A stretch of DNA of 55,311 bases from Anaerolineales bacterium. GTDB taxonomy: Bacteria; Chloroflexota; Anaerolineae; Anaerolineales; Villigracilaceae. The translations under genes were made by a program, and so were the position numbers. This document shows, piece by piece, positions 26,745-36,591 of this stretch; position 1 is the first letter of the stretch; every line of letters starts with the position of its first letter. Location of the stretch: the NCBI GenBank assembly GCA_016928525.1, contig JAFGKO010000061.1:1-55311 (forward strand). Direction: 5' to 3'. The notes under the pieces were generated by a model. That model made no database searches. It was not told where the DNA came from and saw nothing but the letters and a program-made list of their open reading frames with translations.

Positions 26745-28034
26745 GCGTGTAACGCTCATCATTACCCCAGGTCGCGGTTCAAGAGTCGCGCCCATGTGGG
26801 GACGGATTTGACCGGAGTTCAAAGTTTGAAAGGTGAAGGTTTTGAGTAAGTAAGCAAGCACCAGCCGCGCCTCGGCCTGACCAAAGGCCGCGCCGATGCA
26901 TGCCCGCGGCCCACCGCCGAAAGGGACGTAGGAAAAGGACGGCGTTTTCCGTCCGCGTTCGAAGCGCGCTGGGCAGAACCCGTCTGCATTTTCCCAGATG
27001 GATGGATCGCGGTGGGTCAGGTAGATCGAGTAGAACATGCGCGCTCCCGCCGGAACAACGCCGCCTTCGAATTCCATATTTTCCGCCACCATGCGGTTGC
27101 CGATATGGATGGGCGGGTACAGCCGTAGCGTTTCTTTGATGACTTGGTCGAGCAATGGCGGCCTGTTATCGAGTTCCAACTCGGCTACGAGTTGTTGGTG
27201 AATGTCAGGGTGTTGCCCAAGCAAGGCGAAGGTCCACGCCAGCAGGGCGGTGGAGGTATCGTGCCCGGCGATCAGCATGGTCAGTATCTGGTCGCGGATG
27301 ATGCCGTCGTCGAGGCCGGCGTCGATCAAATGCTGGAGTAAATCGCTTGGACCGTTGACTGTGGACGATGGACCGTTGGTCGTATTGGACAAACAACCGT
27401 CTGCTGTCCGTTGTCTACGGTCCTTGATTATTCCGTACAGATATTCATCCAAAACCCGCAAATGCTTTTTATATCCTGGCCTGGGTATTTTGCGCCATAG
27501 AATCCATGCTCCCGGCGAGATGTATTCGATGGTTTTCAGGATGGGAGTCCAAAGGCGCGGGATATCATCCCAGACGTCCACGCTGAATAGGGCTTGCATG
27601 ATGATCAGCAGGGCAATCTTGCGGCTTTCGACCAGCATATCTATGCTCTGACCATCACCCCATGTAGCAGCAACCCGCTCGGTCTGCGCCAACATCATTT
27701 GCGCATAACCATCAAGTTGTGATGGATGCAGAGCTGGTTCCATCAGTTTGCGGTAATGGTCGTGCTCTTCGCCATCTGTGACCAGCACGCCACGCCGAAG
27801 CAGGTCGGTAACCGGGTCGTGGTTGCGCCAGAGCACCTTGTCACGCTCGGTGACCAGTACCTTGCGGTTGGCCTCCGGGCTAGCCACTACAAACGGTTTA
27901 AAGCCGGGTAGTGGAATCTGGAAAAAACCGCCCACGCGCTCGAAGAGTACGCGCAGCGGCCCGAGCGGGTTTTTGTGCTCCAGGAAGGATTGCAAGGCCA
28001 GGTGGCCGGTTTGAGGGTCAAATTGTTGTTTCAT
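26715..28034 (-). CDS. Cytochrome P450, probable carotenoid-modifying enzyme
   Basis: 439 residues. The I-helix is AGHDTSTALLAWTF, the K-helix IKETLRLYPP, and the heme loop FGGGPRACIGAAFG with the thiolate Cys; all three are intact. The linkage to lycopene cyclase, crtI and crtB suggests a carotenoid-ring hydroxylase like CYP175A1 of Thermus, but this is inference. An in-frame stretch with two NGPS units (encoded near 27,349-27,424) looks like a dispersed repeat inserted in a surface loop before DLLQHLIDAG. It overlaps the photolyase gene by 17 bases. Confidence 0.9.
   Translation of the reverse strand: MKQQFDPQTGHLALQSFLEHKNPLGPLRVLFERVGGFFQIPLPGFKPFVVASPEANRKVLVTERDKVLWRNHDPVTDLLRRGVLVTDGEEHDHYRKLMEPALHPSQLDGYAQMMLAQTERVAATWGDGQSIDMLVESRKIALLIIMQALFSVDVWDDIPRLWTPILKTIEYISPGAWILWRKIPRPGYKKHLRVLDEYLYGIIKDRRQRTADGCLSNTTNGPSSTVNGPSDLLQHLIDAGLDDGIIRDQILTMLIAGHDTSTALLAWTFALLGQHPDIHQQLVAELELDNRPPLLDQVIKETLRLYPPIHIGNRMVAENMEFEGGVVPAGARMFYSIYLTHRDPSIWENADGFCPARFERGRKTPSFSYVPFGGGPRACIGAAFGQAEARLVLAYLLKTFTFQTLNSGQIRPHMGATLEPRPGVMMSVTRREQRTETRE
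27349..27424. repeat. Repeat-like insertion inside the P450 coding sequence
   Basis: GGACCGTTG occurs at 27,349-27,357 and again at 27,370-27,378, followed by GTCCGTTG and ACGGTCC variants. The segment encodes a low-complexity loop (Asn-Gly-Pro-Ser units) without breaking the frame. Confidence 0.55.
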
Positions 28035-29436
28035 ATGCTAACTTTGATAACTTGTATGCTTCCAGCGCGCGTTCACGCGCCTCGCGGTGATCTATGATGG
28101 GGGCCGGGTAACCTGGTACGTTAGTATTTTTCTCCCACGGGGCATGAATGACATCCGTGGATAAGTGTGCCAGTTCGGGCACCCACTTGCGGATGTAATC
28201 ACCGTGCGGGTCGAATTTGCGCGCTTGCAGCACTGGATTGAAGATGCGGAAGTAGGGTGCGGCATCGGTGCCGGTGCTCGCCGTCCATTGCCAGCCGCCG
28301 TTGTTGGCTGCCGGGTCGCCGTCCAGCAGGTTCTGCATGAACCACCACTCACCCCAACGCCAGTTGATCAGCAGGTCTTTCACCAGAAACGAAGCCGCGA
28401 TCATGCGCGCCCGGTTGTGCATCCAGCCAGTCTCACCTAGTTGGCGCATAGCGGCGTCCACGATGGGAAAGCCAGTCCGGCCTTCCGTCCATGCCTTGAA
28501 TTCCGTCTCATCGTTGCGCCAGGAAATGTTTGCCAGCGTAGCATTGAAGGCGGTTTTTGCCACATATGGAAAATGATACATGATCTGGATGTAGAATTCG
28601 CGCCAGATTAGTTCGTTCAGCCAGGCTTCCGCGCCTTTACGACTCTCCGCATCATTTGCGGCGTTCTTCGACTGCGGGCCGCTACTCGGCCCTCCGCTCA
28701 GGGTCCTGCTTATGGCCTGCTGGGCGCTATGGACGACTTGTTTCAGCCCAAGCATCCCAAAGCGGATGTAGGGTGATAGTGCGGAGGTGCCGTCCAGGTC
28801 CATGCGATTGCGATTTTCTGCATAGTCGAATATTTTTTCAGTAACAAATACATCTAAACGCAGTTGCGCTTCTTGCCCTCCTGTCGGGAACAAATCGCTG
28901 GTAGGAGCCTCGGGGATGGATTCAGTCTGGATATTTCTTGGTGTGGGAATATGTTCAGGCGCTGGTGTGATGCTGATGCCGTCTGGCAACAGGGACTTCC
29001 ATGCCTTCGCGTAGGGTGTGTAAACTGTGTAGGGCGCGCCATCCGCTTTTTTGACGAATTCAGGATGCTGGACGACTTGCCCCAGCACCAGTTGCAATGG
29101 CAGTTTGTGGGCGACTTCTGCTTCACGTTTACGGGCGTAGGGCGTGTAATCTTCTTCAGCAAAGATTGCGTCCGCGCTGGCTTCGGCCAGCAGAGAATGC
29201 AGGATTTCAACGGGTTTCCCACTGCGGATCACCAGATAGCTGCCGCGTTTTCGCAGGTCAGCATCCAGTGCGCGCAGGCCGTTGAACAGGAAGTTCTGTC
29301 GCCGCAAGGGGGTGCGCTGAAGCAGGTGTGGGTCGAGGATGAAGACCGGGAGTACAGGCGCAGCATTGAGCGCGGCTTGAAGCGTGGGGTTGTCCGTCAG
29401 ACGCAAGTCCCGGCGAATCCACCAGATGGCTGTCAT
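28018..29436 (-). CDS. phr: Deoxyribodipyrimidine photolyase
   Basis: 472 residues, the usual length. The N-terminal Rossmann domain begins [19 protein letters not shown]. The FAD-binding half has [41 protein letters not shown] and [13 protein letters not shown], including the Trp residues of the electron path. It repairs UV pyrimidine dimers using light, or is a close cryptochrome-like relative. It overlaps the upstream hypothetical gene by 4 bases and the P450 by 17, so it is part of the same transcript. The CarH-like regulator upstream would link it to light. Confidence 0.93.
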
Positions 29437-30077
29437 GCAGATTCCGGGGCTGCGAGTTCGCTCAAGGAATACCGGGTTACCTTTTCGTTGATGGTGATGT
29501 TCAGGGTCCCGTCACGGTTCAATTCCAGTCGACCTGCATTGCCGAGGTTGTCTTTGAAATTCAACGAGCCATAGGCGCGGATGCGTGTGCGACTGAGTAA
29601 TGAAAGCGCCAGCTCGCTGGTGATGATCCCGGTCAGTTCAGCCATATATTCGCCGGACATGAAGGTGAAACGGGATGGCGCGGGCATACCCAATCCACGC
29701 AAACCGACGGTGGTGCCTGTGATTTCTTCCTTGCCCTGGAAAGCGTCGCCGTTGGACATGCCGACATTGTAGGAGATGTGATAATGCGGCGAACGGCTGT
29801 CAAGACGGGCGGTGACATTTGCACCGGTAGCAGGATCAGGTTCACTGACAATGTCGCCTGTGGCGTTGAAGTTGGGCTGGTAATAAGCGCGTCCGTAAGA
29901 AGTCGAAGATGTGGCGGTGTATATCGCAATATTTTCAAGAGCTTTGGCGCTGTGTCCCCGTGCAAGTAGTTCGGGAACCGGGGTCAGCCAGACGGTCTTG
30001 TGCATGCGGCGGACGATGTAACCCAGTAAGGTGATGCCTTCAGGTGGGAGTTCGTAACGGACGGTGTCAAGTAACAT
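29433..30077 (-). CDS. Conserved hypothetical protein, 214 residues
   Basis: I do not recognise this family. No signal peptide or membrane span is apparent. The middle has a beta-rich pattern (SPHYHISYNVGMSNG, then GTTVGLRGLGMPAPSRF and ARLELNRDG-like strands near the end), suggesting a beta-sandwich or lipocalin-like soluble fold. The stop overlaps the photolyase start (ATGA). The gene follows the peroxiredoxin-like gene by 39 bases. It is probably part of the light/oxidative stress operon. Confidence 0.65.
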   Translation of the reverse strand: MLLDTVRYELPPEGITLLGYIVRRMHKTVWLTPVPELLARGHSAKALENIAIYTATSSTSYGRAYYQPNFNATGDIVSEPDPATGANVTARLDSRSPHYHISYNVGMSNGDAFQGKEEITGTTVGLRGLGMPAPSRFTFMSGEYMAELTGIITSELALSLLSRTRIRAYGSLNFKDNLGNAGRLELNRDGTLNITINEKVTRYSLSELAAPESA

Positions 30078-30116: not shown

Positions 30117-30605
30117 TCATTTAGACATTGCTGCTTCGTCAACGAATGTTTCCAGGATTTGTAATACTTCATTGTTTTCGGGAATATCGCTCATAGCGTG
30201 CCCGTAATGAACATAGCGAGCAATGCCCTGTTTGTCGATAATGACCTGGGCTGGCATGCGCCCCAGCTTGAACAGGTTGACCTCCTGCCCGTAGCGTTTC
30301 AAAACGCTATGGGTTGGGTCGGGCAAACCGATGAAGGGTAGTTTGTGCGACTTCCAATACAACCTGAAATTATCTGCGTCTTCAGGCCCTACCACGATGA
30401 TCTCGGTTTCCAGTGCCTGGAATTTCGAATAGTCTCGGCGCAACTGCGCCATGTGCCGTTGGCAGAATGGTCATATAAAGCCACGATTGAACACCAGTAG
30501 CGCGTTACGTTTGTTTTTGAAATCTGATAGGCTGATTTGCTGCCCGTTAGCATCCGTAAGTGAAAAATCAGGCGCAGGTTGGTCGATTTGAACTCGTTTA
30601 GCCAT
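30117..30605 (-). CDS. Peroxiredoxin-like (AhpC/TSA) selenoprotein with UxxC, TGA read as Sec
   Basis: The frame from ATG 30,605 runs 44 codons (QPAPDFSLTDANGQQISLSDF, then LLVFNRGFI), meets TGA at 30,473-30,471, and continues in the same frame as PFCQRHMAQLRRDYSKF to a stop at 30,117. The total is 162 residues, normal for the family. Relatives have CPFC at this spot, so the TGA replaces exactly the first Cys (residue 45); the second is Cys 48. A hairpin with stem GGCGC/GCGCC and loop AGTT (30,450-30,437) begins 20 bases after the TGA, as in bacterial SECIS elements. The start shares a base with the previous stop (TAATG). A nonsense mutation is the alternative. Confidence 0.8.
30434..30453 (-). 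promoter_or_regulatory. Candidate bacterial SECIS hairpin
   Basis: On the minus strand GGCGC (30,450-30,446), loop AGTT and GCGCC (30,441-30,437) form a GC-rich stem. It is extended by a T-G pair and, past one mismatch, a C-G pair. The loop starts 25 bases after the TGA and contains G, as known bacterial SECIS loops do. It lies within the coding sequence. Confidence 0.6.
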
Positions 30606-31303
30606 TAAAAACCTCTTTTTTGCCCCTCCCAGGGCGGGGATGCCTGTGCGCGGAATTCTTCCACGCTTGGTCCCTTTAGATTTCCCAATCGCCAGGTACC
30701 GTACAGGTAACTGAGCACCAGCAGGATAATTAGAGCAGGCCAGCCCAGCAGAACATTGACGAATGCCAGTTGGTTTGCAGCCTGAGCTTGGAAAAGCGAA
30801 ACCTGCCAGAGCAAGCGGGCGGCGAAGAATATTGTCCATGCAATCGTAACTTCGCTGTATGCCGGGCGTACGTGCGGATGCCAGTACCATTCCAACGGCC
30901 AGCGGCGGGCGAGGAAACTCGTCCAGGCGACAAACGGTCGGCGGATAAGCAGGCTGATCAGCGCCAAGGCAAAGGTCATGCCGCCGCTGACCAGATTGGG
31001 GAGGAAGTAACCTTCCGTCCGCCCCAAGAGCCAGACGATAAGAATGGCCAGACCCACACTGCCGATCCCAGCCAGGGCATACAGCAGGGATTGTCCGCGC
31101 CACAGACGCAGGGCGGCGATCAGTGTTGCCGGGCCCAGGGAGGCCCACATGGCGGCCTGGAACCCGAACATGCCGTTTACCAGCAGGAAGATAACCGGCG
31201 GGATGATGGTATCTAGCAGATTGCCTTTGCCCAGAACAAGGCGAAACTCATCCAGGAGTTCGCGCCATTTATTGTTCCGGGCGGGCGTCCAATTTTCAGG
31301 CAT
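30605..31303 (-). CDS. DUF3159-like membrane protein
   Basis: 232 residues from ATG 31,303 (MPENW); the longer frame from 31,378 adds residues that overlap the previous gene. Six or so hydrophobic spans: LLDTIIPPVIFLLVNGMFG, then AALRLWRG and RPFVAWTSFLARRWPLEWYW typical of the DUF3159 group of unknown function. It overlaps the previous gene by 8 bases, and its stop shares a base with the selenoprotein start, so all are translated together. The role is unknown; the context suggests membrane or redox stress. Confidence 0.7.
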   Translation of the reverse strand: MPENWTPARNNKWRELLDEFRLVLGKGNLLDTIIPPVIFLLVNGMFGFQAAMWASLGPATLIAALRLWRGQSLLYALAGIGSVGLAILIVWLLGRTEGYFLPNLVSGGMTFALALISLLIRRPFVAWTSFLARRWPLEWYWHPHVRPAYSEVTIAWTIFFAARLLWQVSLFQAQAANQLAFVNVLLGWPALIILLVLSYLYGTWRLGNLKGPSVEEFRAQASPPWEGQKRGF

Positions 31304-31622
31304 GCTTCCCCATCCAGAACTTCTTCCAATCGCCCCGACTGGTGTACAGGTTGATGAGCGCATACAGGCTGCCGGCAAAGAAGCCTAGTACCAGCATGGC
31401 GACTGTCCAGAGCAGGGCCACAGGCAGGGATTTCTCGCGGTAAATGATCCAGGCTGAGAACAGCGTGAAGCCGACATACAGGTCTACCAGCGAGACGATA
31501 CCCCAGGGCATGGATGCCAATTGGCTGCCTTCGCCGAAGAAATCACCGACGGTAAAGCCGTAGATCAAGACGGCGGTCATGGCAAGTACGCCGAGAAATG
31601 TAATAAATTTTGCGAGTTTCAT
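31296..31622 (-). CDS. Small membrane protein, DUF1475-like
   Basis: 108 residues, three hydrophobic spans (about 5-22, 40-60 and 68-90). MPWGIVSLVDLYVGFTLFSAW and the GSLYALINLYTSRG end resemble DUF1475 proteins of unknown function. One-base overlap with the upstream gene (stop and start share a base) and 8-base overlap downstream show tight translational coupling. Confidence 0.65.
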   Translation of the reverse strand: MKLAKFITFLGVLAMTAVLIYGFTVGDFFGEGSQLASMPWGIVSLVDLYVGFTLFSAWIIYREKSLPVALLWTVAMLVLGFFAGSLYALINLYTSRGDWKKFWMGKHA

Positions 31623-33740: not shown

Positions 33741-35036
33741 CTAATTCTTTCCGTTGATTTGTGTTCTCAGCCAGGACGAAATGGGCTGGCCCTCTTTGCC
33801 CATGGCCGAATCGATGGATTTTGCATAAGCTGCAAAAAAGACATCCAGGCTTTCAATATTTTGATCGTGTTCACGTAGCAGACCTTCGATCCATGCCATC
33901 TCTCCTTCCAGGGCCTCGATATTGCCCAAAGATAAAGCGGATACCAGGTTATTCCCAAGTTGCTGAATGGCAATAGTTGAAAATTCAATCGGGATGCCGA
34001 TTTTGGTGCTTTCTGTCAAGGTATACATATCAATCATGGGCTGGTTATGAATGAACGACCTGCTTAATTGCTTATCTTTTTCATCGACTGGCACAATGCC
34101 TTCCAGGGGTATGTCTGAAGTTAGTAAAGTTTCCACTGCCTGAACTGCTTCTTGAATCGATTCGCCCAGGAAGTGAGCCGGGATGCGGTTACGCAGTTGG
34201 GGGATTTGATTGAAAATGCGACCACCGTAAGCGACACGCCCTCCGTTGGCGTTGAGGTATGCTGCTGTTTCTCGTAAGTCATTAGCGGTTTGTAGCAATT
34301 GTGCCGACAGAATAACGAGATGTGGCTTGATAGATTGAAGAGTTTCATTGTAACGCTGAATCGGCACATTAGCGCCCAGGTAGACAACTTTCAGTCCACG
34401 GCGGCGAAGCAAAAGGGTCAGTAACAATGGTACAAATACATGCTGTTCACCCGTAGTGCAACCGATCAAGATCGTGTAAGGACGAGTGGGCGGCGGGGCC
34501 GCGGCGATAAGCGCATCCAGCCGGCGTTGTACGAGGGCAGATGTGAAATGCTCTTGCTGGGCGTTGATCTGGTTGTGGTACCACATCTCACCGATTTGCT
34601 GCAGGCCGCGCTGCATTACTTCTATGCAGACTGTTTCCAGCGGGTGCGTGGCAAAAGCCTGGTTGAGCAGTTGTTCGGCGCTGTTTTCGTCATATACCAG
34701 GCAGGCATCCAGCCAAGTCTGGCGGATAGCGTCCAGGTTGGCGCTGGGGATAGTTGTAATTTTTGTGGCGGGAGCAGGCAACGGGTCCTGGCCTGATCCG
34801 GTCAGTTCATTCCACATGTCCACCGCGCGAGAAATACTCAGTCCTTCGCGTTGTTTTGCCATCAGCCATTTTATGATCTCGATGTCGCGTTGGGAATACA
34901 GGCGGTGACCGCCGGGCGTACGTTCAGGCATGGGCAGGCCATAGCGGCGTTCCCAGGCGCGCAGGGTGTCGGCAGCGATGCTGGTCTCTTTGATAACGGC
35001 TTTCAAGTTAAACGTAGGCGTGGTGCTGATAGACAT
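33741..35036 (-). CDS. carH: CarH/LitR-like B12-dependent light-sensing MerR regulator
   Basis: 431 residues from ATG 35,036 (GGAG just upstream); the ATG at 35,081 would overlap crtI. The MerR winged helix is at 7-75 (LRAWERRYGLPMPERTPGGHRLY). The helical cap carries the photoreceptor motif Wx9EH (W152, E162, H163). The B12 Rossmann domain has GEQH with the likely lower ligand H199, then YLGANVP. These residues match CarH, which binds adenosylcobalamin, represses in the dark and releases DNA in light. A C-terminal helical extension of about 120 residues (311-431) is absent from characterised CarH. Targets are probably the crtI/crtB promoters. Confidence 0.88.
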   Translation of the reverse strand: MSISTTPTFNLKAVIKETSIAADTLRAWERRYGLPMPERTPGGHRLYSQRDIEIIKWLMAKQREGLSISRAVDMWNELTGSGQDPLPAPATKITTIPSANLDAIRQTWLDACLVYDENSAEQLLNQAFATHPLETVCIEVMQRGLQQIGEMWYHNQINAQQEHFTSALVQRRLDALIAAAPPPTRPYTILIGCTTGEQHVFVPLLLTLLLRRRGLKVVYLGANVPIQRYNETLQSIKPHLVILSAQLLQTANDLRETAAYLNANGGRVAYGGRIFNQIPQLRNRIPAHFLGESIQEAVQAVETLLTSDIPLEGIVPVDEKDKQLSRSFIHNQPMIDMYTLTESTKIGIPIEFSTIAIQQLGNNLVSALSLGNIEALEGEMAWIEGLLREHDQNIESLDVFFAAYAKSIDSAMGKEGQPISSWLRTQINGKN

Positions 35037-35055
35037 CTTTTCTCCAGAAAAGGGA

Positions 35056-36591
35056 TTAATCGGTTGCAGCGGCGACTGCATTGACCATATTTTGTACAGA
35101 TATTGTACCCTTTTCTAGCAGAATTCGCTCTGTCGTTAATCTGGCAGATAGCAGCACAATGGGCAAACCGGTGCCAGGGTGCGTGGACGCACCGGCGAAG
35201 TACAAATTCTTATATTTCTTGTGACGGTTATGTGGACGCAGGTAGCCGACCTGCCAGAAATTGTGACTCAAGCCAAACGCAGCGCCCTTTTCAAGGTTGA
35301 AGCGTTCTTTCCAGACTTCAGGCTGGTACACGATTTCGAACTTGATGTGACTCTCCAGATCTGTGATGCCCATCTCTTTGGACAGTCGTTCGAAGACGGT
35401 TTGACGCGCCCGGTTGACGCGCTCATCCCAATCCTGCTTTGAAGCTGCATCCAGATGACCGACCGGAACCAGCACGTAGAGCGTATCCTGGTCTTTGGGC
35501 GCGGCGGCGGGGTCGGTCCGGGTGGGTGCGTGCACGTAGAAGCTGGGTTCGTCGGGCAGGTCATGGTCCTTGAAGATCTGATCGAAGGAGGCCTTGTAGT
35601 CGCCACCCAGGAACACGTTGTGATGCGCGATCTGCGGGTATTGCTTGTCCACGCCCCAAAAGAACATGATGGTGGAGCAGGTATAGAGCTTTTCATCCAG
35701 TTTCTTAGCTTCGACCGGATCGGGCAGTAATTCCTTGTAGATGTAGGGCAGATCAGCGTTGCCGACGAAGATGTCTGCTTCCAGCGTTTGCCCGTTTTCC
35801 AGTTCGACCGCTGTGACTTTTGAACCTTCAACTTTCAACTCTTTGACGGGTGCATTGTAGATAAACTTCACGCCTAGTTTTTCGGCAACTTTTACAAGCG
35901 CCTGGATGCCGGCGTACATCCCGCCCATGGGATACCAGACGCCTTCAGCCAGTTCGGTGTATTGCAGCAGGGAGTATGTGGCCGGGGCATCGTATGGGCT
36001 AAGTCCCAGGTACATATTCTGGAAGGTGAAAGCGGCCTTCAGGCGTTCGTCTTTGAAGAAGCGACCTGTGTTGCGGTGGTGTTTGTCCAGCGCTTTGAGT
36101 TTGAAGATCAGCGGCAGGTTTTTCAGGCTGAAATACTCAAAAATGTTGAAGAAATTACGGCCAACGAATTTTTCCAGTGAGATTTTGTAATGTTTTGCGC
36201 CCTCAGCGATGTAGTTCAGGAAACCGGTAAAAGCAGTCTTTTCCACAGATTCGAGCTGGGTTTGCATATCACCGATGTTGGAAGTCAACTCCAGTTGTAA
36301 GCCATCCTCGAAATGGACTTTGTAGGTCGGGTCGATGCGGCGCAGGTCAAAATGGTCGCTCATCCTTTCATCCAGGGATGCGAAGGTTTCCTCCCAGACT
36401 TCGGGCATCAGGAACAGGGTCGGGCCGATGTCGAAGCGATGGCCATCCTTCACGATCTGGTTGCAACGCCCACCCGGGGTCTCGTTCTTTTCGAGCACGG
36501 TGACACTATATCCATTTTTTGCCAGACGAGCAGCGGTTGCGATCCCGCCGATGCCAGCGCCGATCACAATTGCTGTTGGTTTTTGAGTCAT
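35056..36591 (-). CDS. crtI: Phytoene desaturase
   Basis: 511 residues. The N-terminal FAD motif is IVIGAGIGGIATAARLAKNGYSV-like (GAGIGGIATAARLA at 12-25), then EKNETPGGRCNQI. The C-terminal FAD motif ends NLYFAGASTHPGTGLPIVLLSA. It desaturates phytoene to lycopene or a related product at the membrane. It has a strong promoter and GAAGGAG before the ATG. It heads the minus-strand photoprotection gene chain, with the carH-like gene 19 bases after its stop. Confidence 0.94.
   Translation of the reverse strand: MTQKPTAIVIGAGIGGIATAARLAKNGYSVTVLEKNETPGGRCNQIVKDGHRFDIGPTLFLMPEVWEETFASLDERMSDHFDLRRIDPTYKVHFEDGLQLELTSNIGDMQTQLESVEKTAFTGFLNYIAEGAKHYKISLEKFVGRNFFNIFEYFSLKNLPLIFKLKALDKHHRNTGRFFKDERLKAAFTFQNMYLGLSPYDAPATYSLLQYTELAEGVWYPMGGMYAGIQALVKVAEKLGVKFIYNAPVKELKVEGSKVTAVELENGQTLEADIFVGNADLPYIYKELLPDPVEAKKLDEKLYTCSTIMFFWGVDKQYPQIAHHNVFLGGDYKASFDQIFKDHDLPDEPSFYVHAPTRTDPAAAPKDQDTLYVLVPVGHLDAASKQDWDERVNRARQTVFERLSKEMGITDLESHIKFEIVYQPEVWKERFNLEKGAAFGLSHNFWQVGYLRPHNRHKKYKNLYFAGASTHPGTGLPIVLLSARLTTERILLEKGTISVQNMVNAVAAATD

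Follow-up and report, generated by a model that had tools for sequence, protein, structure and literature searches.

Does the TGA codon that interrupts a peroxiredoxin-like (Prx-like) gene of an Anaerolineales genome specify selenocysteine (Sec), or does it betray a pseudogene, a true stop or a reassigned codon? The gene lies on the minus strand of the window, i.e., the whole stretch of 55,311 nucleotides that was analyzed, and a sequence-only reading of this stretch had proposed that it encodes a selenoprotein with a UxxC motif. The present analysis supports Sec insertion because (i) the TGA is conserved among relatives, (ii) the hairpin located downstream is constrained at the level of synonymous codons, (iii) this hairpin shows compensatory changes and (iv) the genome of the closest relative encodes the Sec machinery. 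Judging from these comparisons of sequences, we consider it very probable that the product of this gene is a Prx-like selenoprotein with a UxxC motif.

A single reading frame and its TGA codon

The gene consists of a single AhpC/TSA-family frame whose sole interruption is the TGA, and the coordinates proposed for it were exact (Table 1). Its start and its length had been described as normal; an ATG preceded by GAGG opens a frame of 162 residues whose read-through product carries the motif U45-P-F-C48. When Cys is put at the TGA, the Pfam AhpC-TSA domain matches residues 7-131 (2.3e-23) and spans both halves of the protein, while the Redoxin domain matches residues 8-139. The N-terminal half is kept in relatives, so that both halves are conserved as had been claimed. 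Furthermore, the TAA stop of the upstream DUF3159 ORF (30607-30605) overlaps the ATG of the Prx-like gene as TAATG, which suggests that the two genes may be translationally coupled.

Table 1. Features of the Prx-like gene and of its surroundings in the window
Feature	Position	Strand	Details or evidence
Prx-like gene, very probably encoding a UxxC selenoprotein	30117..30605	-	ATG 30605-30603, Sec codon, stop TGA 30119-30117; 162 aa
In-frame TGA at codon 45, interpreted as selenocysteine (U-P-F-C)	30471..30473	-	TGA conserved in 80/80 closest loci and 137/139 distinct sequences
SECIS-type hairpin GGCGC-AGUU-GCGCC	30437..30450	-	Loop AGUU 30445-30442, 25 nt past the TGA
GAGG, likely ribosome-binding site	30612..30615	-	Sequence
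Upstream DUF3159 gene	30605..31378	-	Stop overlaps the Prx-like ATG
Downstream gene, 214 aa, next to the photolyase gene	29433..30077	-	Conserved in 9/80 related loci
DNA photolyase family, recurrent neighbour	28018..29436	-	Profile match and related loci
CarH-like MerR/B12-binding regulator	33741..35081	-	NCBIfam CarH model, 148.5 of 400 bits, below cut-off
CrtI-family phytoene desaturase	35056..36591	-	Profile match and related loci

A DNA scan detected 356 relatives, and TGA was found at the Sec position in all of the best 80 of them (80/80 closest loci). To judge by their record titles, these 80 relatives originate mostly from Chloroflexota (Anaerolineae above all), and also from Deltaproteobacteria (Smithella, Syntrophaceae), some Actinobacteria and single other taxa; the relatives carried by Smithella/Syntrophaceae MAGs share 62-69% identity with the window protein. 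The 80 loci and added loci from the family and phylum samples amount to 162 sequences, of which 139 are distinct (window included). The codon at the Sec position of these 139 sequences is TGA in 137, TGC in two and TGG in none, part of the added regions having been hand-picked from the family and phylum lists, with the two stop-free ones included deliberately. The sequence-only reading had placed the TGA precisely at the position occupied in relatives by the first Cys of their motif. This holds for the two TGC sequences, but most relatives have TGA there; as judged from this set, TGA is the common state among relatives and Cys the rare one. Of the matches listed for the family sample, all except one have an in-frame TGA, and in three of them there is a TAA or TAG as well. 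At one of the loci (L012), a second, unrelated redoxin match (26% identity) has TGT. In a FastTree tree, one of the two Cys homologues (L121) is located inside a UGA clade (support of 0.94 with L148), a position that fits a loss of Sec, and the other (L124) is weakly placed (0.49).

The protein search retrieved 6948 homologues; among the 120 listed, many are fragments of 109-113 residues that correspond to the post-TGA part and share 79-92% identity with it. The 30 aligned rows include 13 of these fragments (109-113 residues), all starting at Met52, the window protein and 16 other full-length database proteins, which have Trp (n = 13), Cys (n = 2) or Leu (n = 1, P0019) at the Sec position. Since there is no TGG among the 139 DNA sequences, this Trp is most likely a TGA translated with another genetic code, probably code 4. 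Many of the Trp-bearing full-length relatives (e.g., P0003, P0004 and P0009) come from short contigs. Automatic annotation had been predicted to miss or split the gene, and the database entries examined are indeed cut at the UGA or show Trp; therefore, this redox enzyme is easily missed or misread. Homologues, paralogues included, were found in 108 of the 150 sampled genomes from the taxonomic family of the closest relative's genome (G001). Passages of a single-cell study published in 2016 (PMC4959059) report that Anaerolinea thermophila UNI-1 encodes a Sec elongation factor and no Sec-annotated dehydrogenase. A MAG labelled A. thermophila, from a different isolate than UNI-1, has this UGA gene (locus L015), which bears on the loose end left in those passages for UNI-1.

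The hairpin downstream of the TGA

A hairpin with a G in its loop had been noticed 20 bases after the TGA; it begins exactly 20 nt after this codon (30450-30437) and exposes the loop AGUU. According to the model given in the Figure 2 legend of a review of 2026 (PMC13188914), a bacterial SECIS has (i) an apical loop of 3-9 nt and an upper stem of 4-16 bp, (ii) a G at the first or second position of the loop, most often with a G or U after it, (iii) a spacing of 16-37 nt from the UGA to the apical loop and (iv) a minimum free energy of at most -7.5 kcal/mol. A SECIS prediction had been recommended as a check, and the hairpin agrees with all four of these published constraints, with a 4-nt loop on a stem of 5-6 bp, a G in second position (A-G-U-U), a spacing of 25 nt and an energy of -8.4 kcal/mol (14-nt hairpin) or -12.5 kcal/mol (stretch of 49 nt). 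This energy is ordinary for the composition of the sequence (49 nt, z = -0.73; equalled or surpassed by 38 of 200 shuffles). Stability alone being weak evidence, the case for the hairpin therefore rests on its conservation and not on its energy.

Several codons following the UGA are almost frozen in the window and the 80 loci: +3 is TGC in 81/81 sequences, +8 is GCG in 77 of 79 Ala codons, +9 is CAG in 80/80 Gln codons, +10 is TTG in 81/81 Leu codons and +11 is CGC or CGT in 79 of 80 Arg codons, whereas Ala and Leu codons vary elsewhere in the same genes. The loci of the family sample, found by a six-frame protein search that uses no DNA pattern, show the same codon stretch. The full 5-bp stem is present in 117 of the 137 TGA sequences, compared to 9.5 expected and a maximum of 18 over 400 synonymous redraws (amino acids fixed, codons drawn from the genes' own usage), and 111 of these 117 sequences have the loop AGUU. 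Stem cells are paired in 93.9% of cases (137 rows, 134 distinct), compared to 18-59% with slid partners. Both sides have changed at three of the five stem pairs, in 13 cells compared to 1.8 in shuffles; however, 10 double-change cells also arise in a control slid by +3, in which no more than 28.8% of the cells are paired, and three double-change pairs are reached by 11 of 500 shuffles, in addition to which relatedness inflates such counts. Even distant UGA homologues (34-40% identity) keep the full stem (8/8) and, in seven cases out of eight, the AGUU loop. Taken as a whole, these comparisons show that this hairpin is under constraint at the RNA level.

The full stem is absent at this place in 20 of the 137 TGA sequences, 18 of which are of a paralogue type. 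The paralogue group (about 40-55% identity) also carries a UGA, and 14 of its sequences have their AGUU apex 9 nt nearer the UGA, on a GCGC-AGUU(G/A)-GCGC stem of 4-6 bp. Among all 137 TGA sequences, an AGUU hairpin with a stem of 4 bp or more is located at +25 in 111, at +16 in 14 and at +36 in one, and none was found in 11. The AGUU apex itself, wherever it lies, would then be the conserved feature, as would be expected of an apex recognized by SelB, and the two hairpin positions around one apex could be considered as a natural experiment on the movement of a SECIS within a coding sequence. The sequences with the shifted apex are L133, L137, L139, L140, L143, L144 and L146-L153, and their apex is encoded by other codons. 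In at least 20 sampled genomes, a UGA paralogue is located at most about 35 kb from selB on the same contig (for example G002:C34, G008:C137, G017:C13, G076:C61, G105:C1 and G142:C1).

Both Cys homologues (L121 and L124) are devoid of the GGCGC/GCGCC stem. The TGC-containing L121 keeps AGUU at the place that it occupies in the paralogues, in a sequence readable as GUUCC-CAGUUAA-GGAAC. This altered hairpin is perhaps a decaying remnant of a SECIS after a Sec-to-Cys change. As AGUU persists in L121, we do not claim that the hairpin was cleanly lost in both Cys homologues.

Selenocysteine machinery and rival readings of the codon

The sequence-only reading had been made dependent on the presence of selB and of the tRNA-Sec gene. 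This reading was not refuted when both were looked for in relatives, in a set of 49 genomes from which 50 of the 80 loci (L001-L050) derive: SelB is over its cut-off in 45 of these genomes, SelA in 44, and a tRNA-Sec scores above 60 bits in 43, this threshold being used because the own cut-off of RF01852 is unspecific (passed by 5 of 14 controls). The closest relative's genome (G001) encodes tRNA-Sec, SelB, SelA and SelD, the SelA and SelD genes being partial and located at contig ends. Its SelD contains a UGA, and its FdhA has a TGA in two copies, the context of which was read for one. ARAGORN assigns the anticodon TCA to the tRNA-SeC of G001, and this anticodon was found in 9/9 tRNA-Sec loci scanned in relatives. 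Within the window, ARAGORN detected no tRNA and there was no Rfam match at gathering scores.

In the family sample, SelB is over its cut-off in 137 of 150 genomes; since it is nearly universal there, co-occurrence was tested in the phylum sample. The gene is present in 32 of the 301 genomes of the latter, with TGA in 31 and TGC in one (G399), and SelB was detected at E 1e-62 in 32/32 gene-bearing genomes compared to 236 of the 301 genomes as a whole (P = 2.5e-4 when kinship is not taken into account). In the family sample, SelB over its cut-off is missing from 7 of the 108 gene-bearing genomes, likely due to draft gaps. SelD is a verified selenoprotein family according to Table 1 of PMC13188914; of the 61 genomes sampled for it, 54 have a SelD over its cut-off, with TGA in every listed match. 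The SelD Sec context could be read in 23 of 30 fetched loci, all from the same bacterial family; the apex is CAGGT in 22 of these 23 and differs in one. The minimum-energy fold uses other pairs at SelD loci L184 and L202. The hairpin of the Prx-like gene resembles that of SelD in its stem letters but has a shorter apex.

These data bear on three other readings of the TGA. The window is known from a single contig, so that a TGC or TGT mutated or misread as TGA, i.e., a pseudogene or a sequencing error, had to be considered; it is very improbable since the same TGA recurs in 80/80 closest loci and 137/139 distinct sequences and the remaining frame is intact and conserved. We attribute a similarly slight probability to a true stop followed by a shorter protein of 111 residues starting at Met52. 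Gene callers do yield this ORF, and 13 of the 29 aligned database relatives are fragments of 109-113 residues starting there, but the conserved N-terminal half completes the Pfam domain, and the short form would, according to the structural model, be deprived of the first strands and of the active site. Moreover, Pro46 (137/139) and Cys48 (139/139) are kept between the TGA and Met52, and residue 52 is Leu instead of Met in seven of eight distant UGA homologues. As for a genome-wide reassignment by which UGA would stand for Trp or Cys, both standard amino acids, it could be evoked by the Trp found here in 13 of the 16 full-length aligned database relatives, which is also what code-4 gene calling would give. 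However, TGG occurs in 0/139 DNA sequences, the terminal stop of the gene itself is TGA and all nine scanned tRNA-Sec loci of relatives carry the anticodon TCA, making this reading the most improbable of all. We thus retain Sec insertion: in this organism, SelB carrying Sec-tRNA(Sec) would bind the AGUU hairpin 25 nt past the UGA, and selenocysteine 45 would be inserted, giving the whole 162-residue protein.

Active site, gene neighbourhood and known families

The AlphaFold model, built with Cys for Sec, has a pLDDT of 88.6 and a pTM of 0.86, residues 111-113 being poorly modelled, and places residue 45 directly before helix 46-57. In this thioredoxin/peroxiredoxin fold, Sec45 immediately precedes the helix of the active site and would be the likely nucleophile; Cys48 would then resolve it as a selenenyl-sulfide, and a thioredoxin-type donor would re-reduce the Sec45-Cys48 bond. 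Such a selenenyl-sulfide cycle is probably the simplest reading of this site. The selenoprotein could nevertheless be a true peroxiredoxin that reduces hydroperoxides and not a thiol:disulfide oxidoreductase. Its closest relatives in the PDB, by sequence and by fold, are Bcp/PrxQ-type and other peroxiredoxins (best match of the model: Bcp1, 3drn, TM of 0.87), and its gene sits among light and oxidative stress genes. The active-site signature of classical peroxiredoxins is PxxxTxxC. The window protein does not keep it but shows RxxxUxxC, since its alignment to 3drn puts Arg41 at the place of Pro, Sec45 at that of Thr and Cys48 at the place of the peroxidatic Cys, a residue that is Ser in the 3drn chain; ResA-type oxidoreductases match the model too. 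A true peroxiredoxin is therefore a plausible alternative, although not the one that we favour.

The claim that the gene is part of a chain of light and oxidative stress genes was borne out, its surroundings being a CarH-like/carotenoid/photolyase cluster (Table 1). At the closest locus (L001), the genes that flank it in the window, DUF3159, DUF4345, DUF1295, DegV, CarH-like, CrtI, CrtB and PatB, are all present with 71-89% identity, a likeness that helps to place the window near Anaerolineales. Among the 80 loci, the neighbours include a photolyase in 23, a CarH-like regulator in 20 and CrtI in 12; one or more of these three genes were found at 27 loci and none at the other 53, all neighbour counts being lower bounds, with many loci short; the photolyase gene (21/23) and the CarH-like gene (17/20) are mostly on the same strand as the Prx-like gene. 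At E 0.001, neither Pfam nor NCBIfam matches the product of the gene at 29433-30077, which is also a recurrent neighbour. It is possible, if rather unlikely, that this cluster is under the control of the B12-dependent photoreceptor-repressor CarH in Anaerolineae and that its Sec-containing Prx-like protein would act together with the photolyase and carotenoids against photo-oxidative damage. If so, selenium would become part of a light response. Among the titles and abstract starts listed for open-access PMC, in part only the top of longer lists, none reports this gene from Anaerolineae or as part of a CarH cluster. No relative was confirmed on viral contigs, where 19 stretches matched the pattern and none encodes one.

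Compared to known systems, the window protein resembles the Bcp/PrxQ peroxiredoxin 3drn in fold (TM of 0.87) and active-site position, but it has Sec for the Thr and Arg for the Pro of the signature, with only 28% identity. SelL carries UxxU, whereas the window protein has one Sec, in a UxxC motif. NF040769 (SelL-related redox protein) is the best NCBIfam match and is matched at <=1e-10 by 51 of 56 aligned relatives; however, the window protein scores 76.6 bits, below the cut-off of 120, only its residues 9-106 align, and no NCBIfam model covers it above its cut-off.

The existence of Prx-like UxxC proteins, assumed by the sequence-only reading, has been known since about 2004-2006: passages of PMC1088965 list 22 Prx-like sequences from the Sargasso Sea in which UxxC replaces TxxU, and passages of PMC1794560 (2006) a Prx-like UxxC protein in Syntrophus aciditrophicus and Geobacter, among others. 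Table 1 of PMC13188914 lists a Prx-like thiol:disulfide oxidoreductase with UxxC under PF00578, and the window protein likewise has a PF00578 domain with UxxC. Since Prx-like UxxC selenoproteins have been published for so long, the window gene adds to an already known kind. According to these passages and this table, it shares with the published family (representative WP_010940744.1) the PF00578 domain, the UxxC motif and a SECIS-type hairpin directly downstream, a likeness drawn from the description of that family. Compared to the family as described there, the branch of the window gene is found mainly in Chloroflexota and often near light-response genes.
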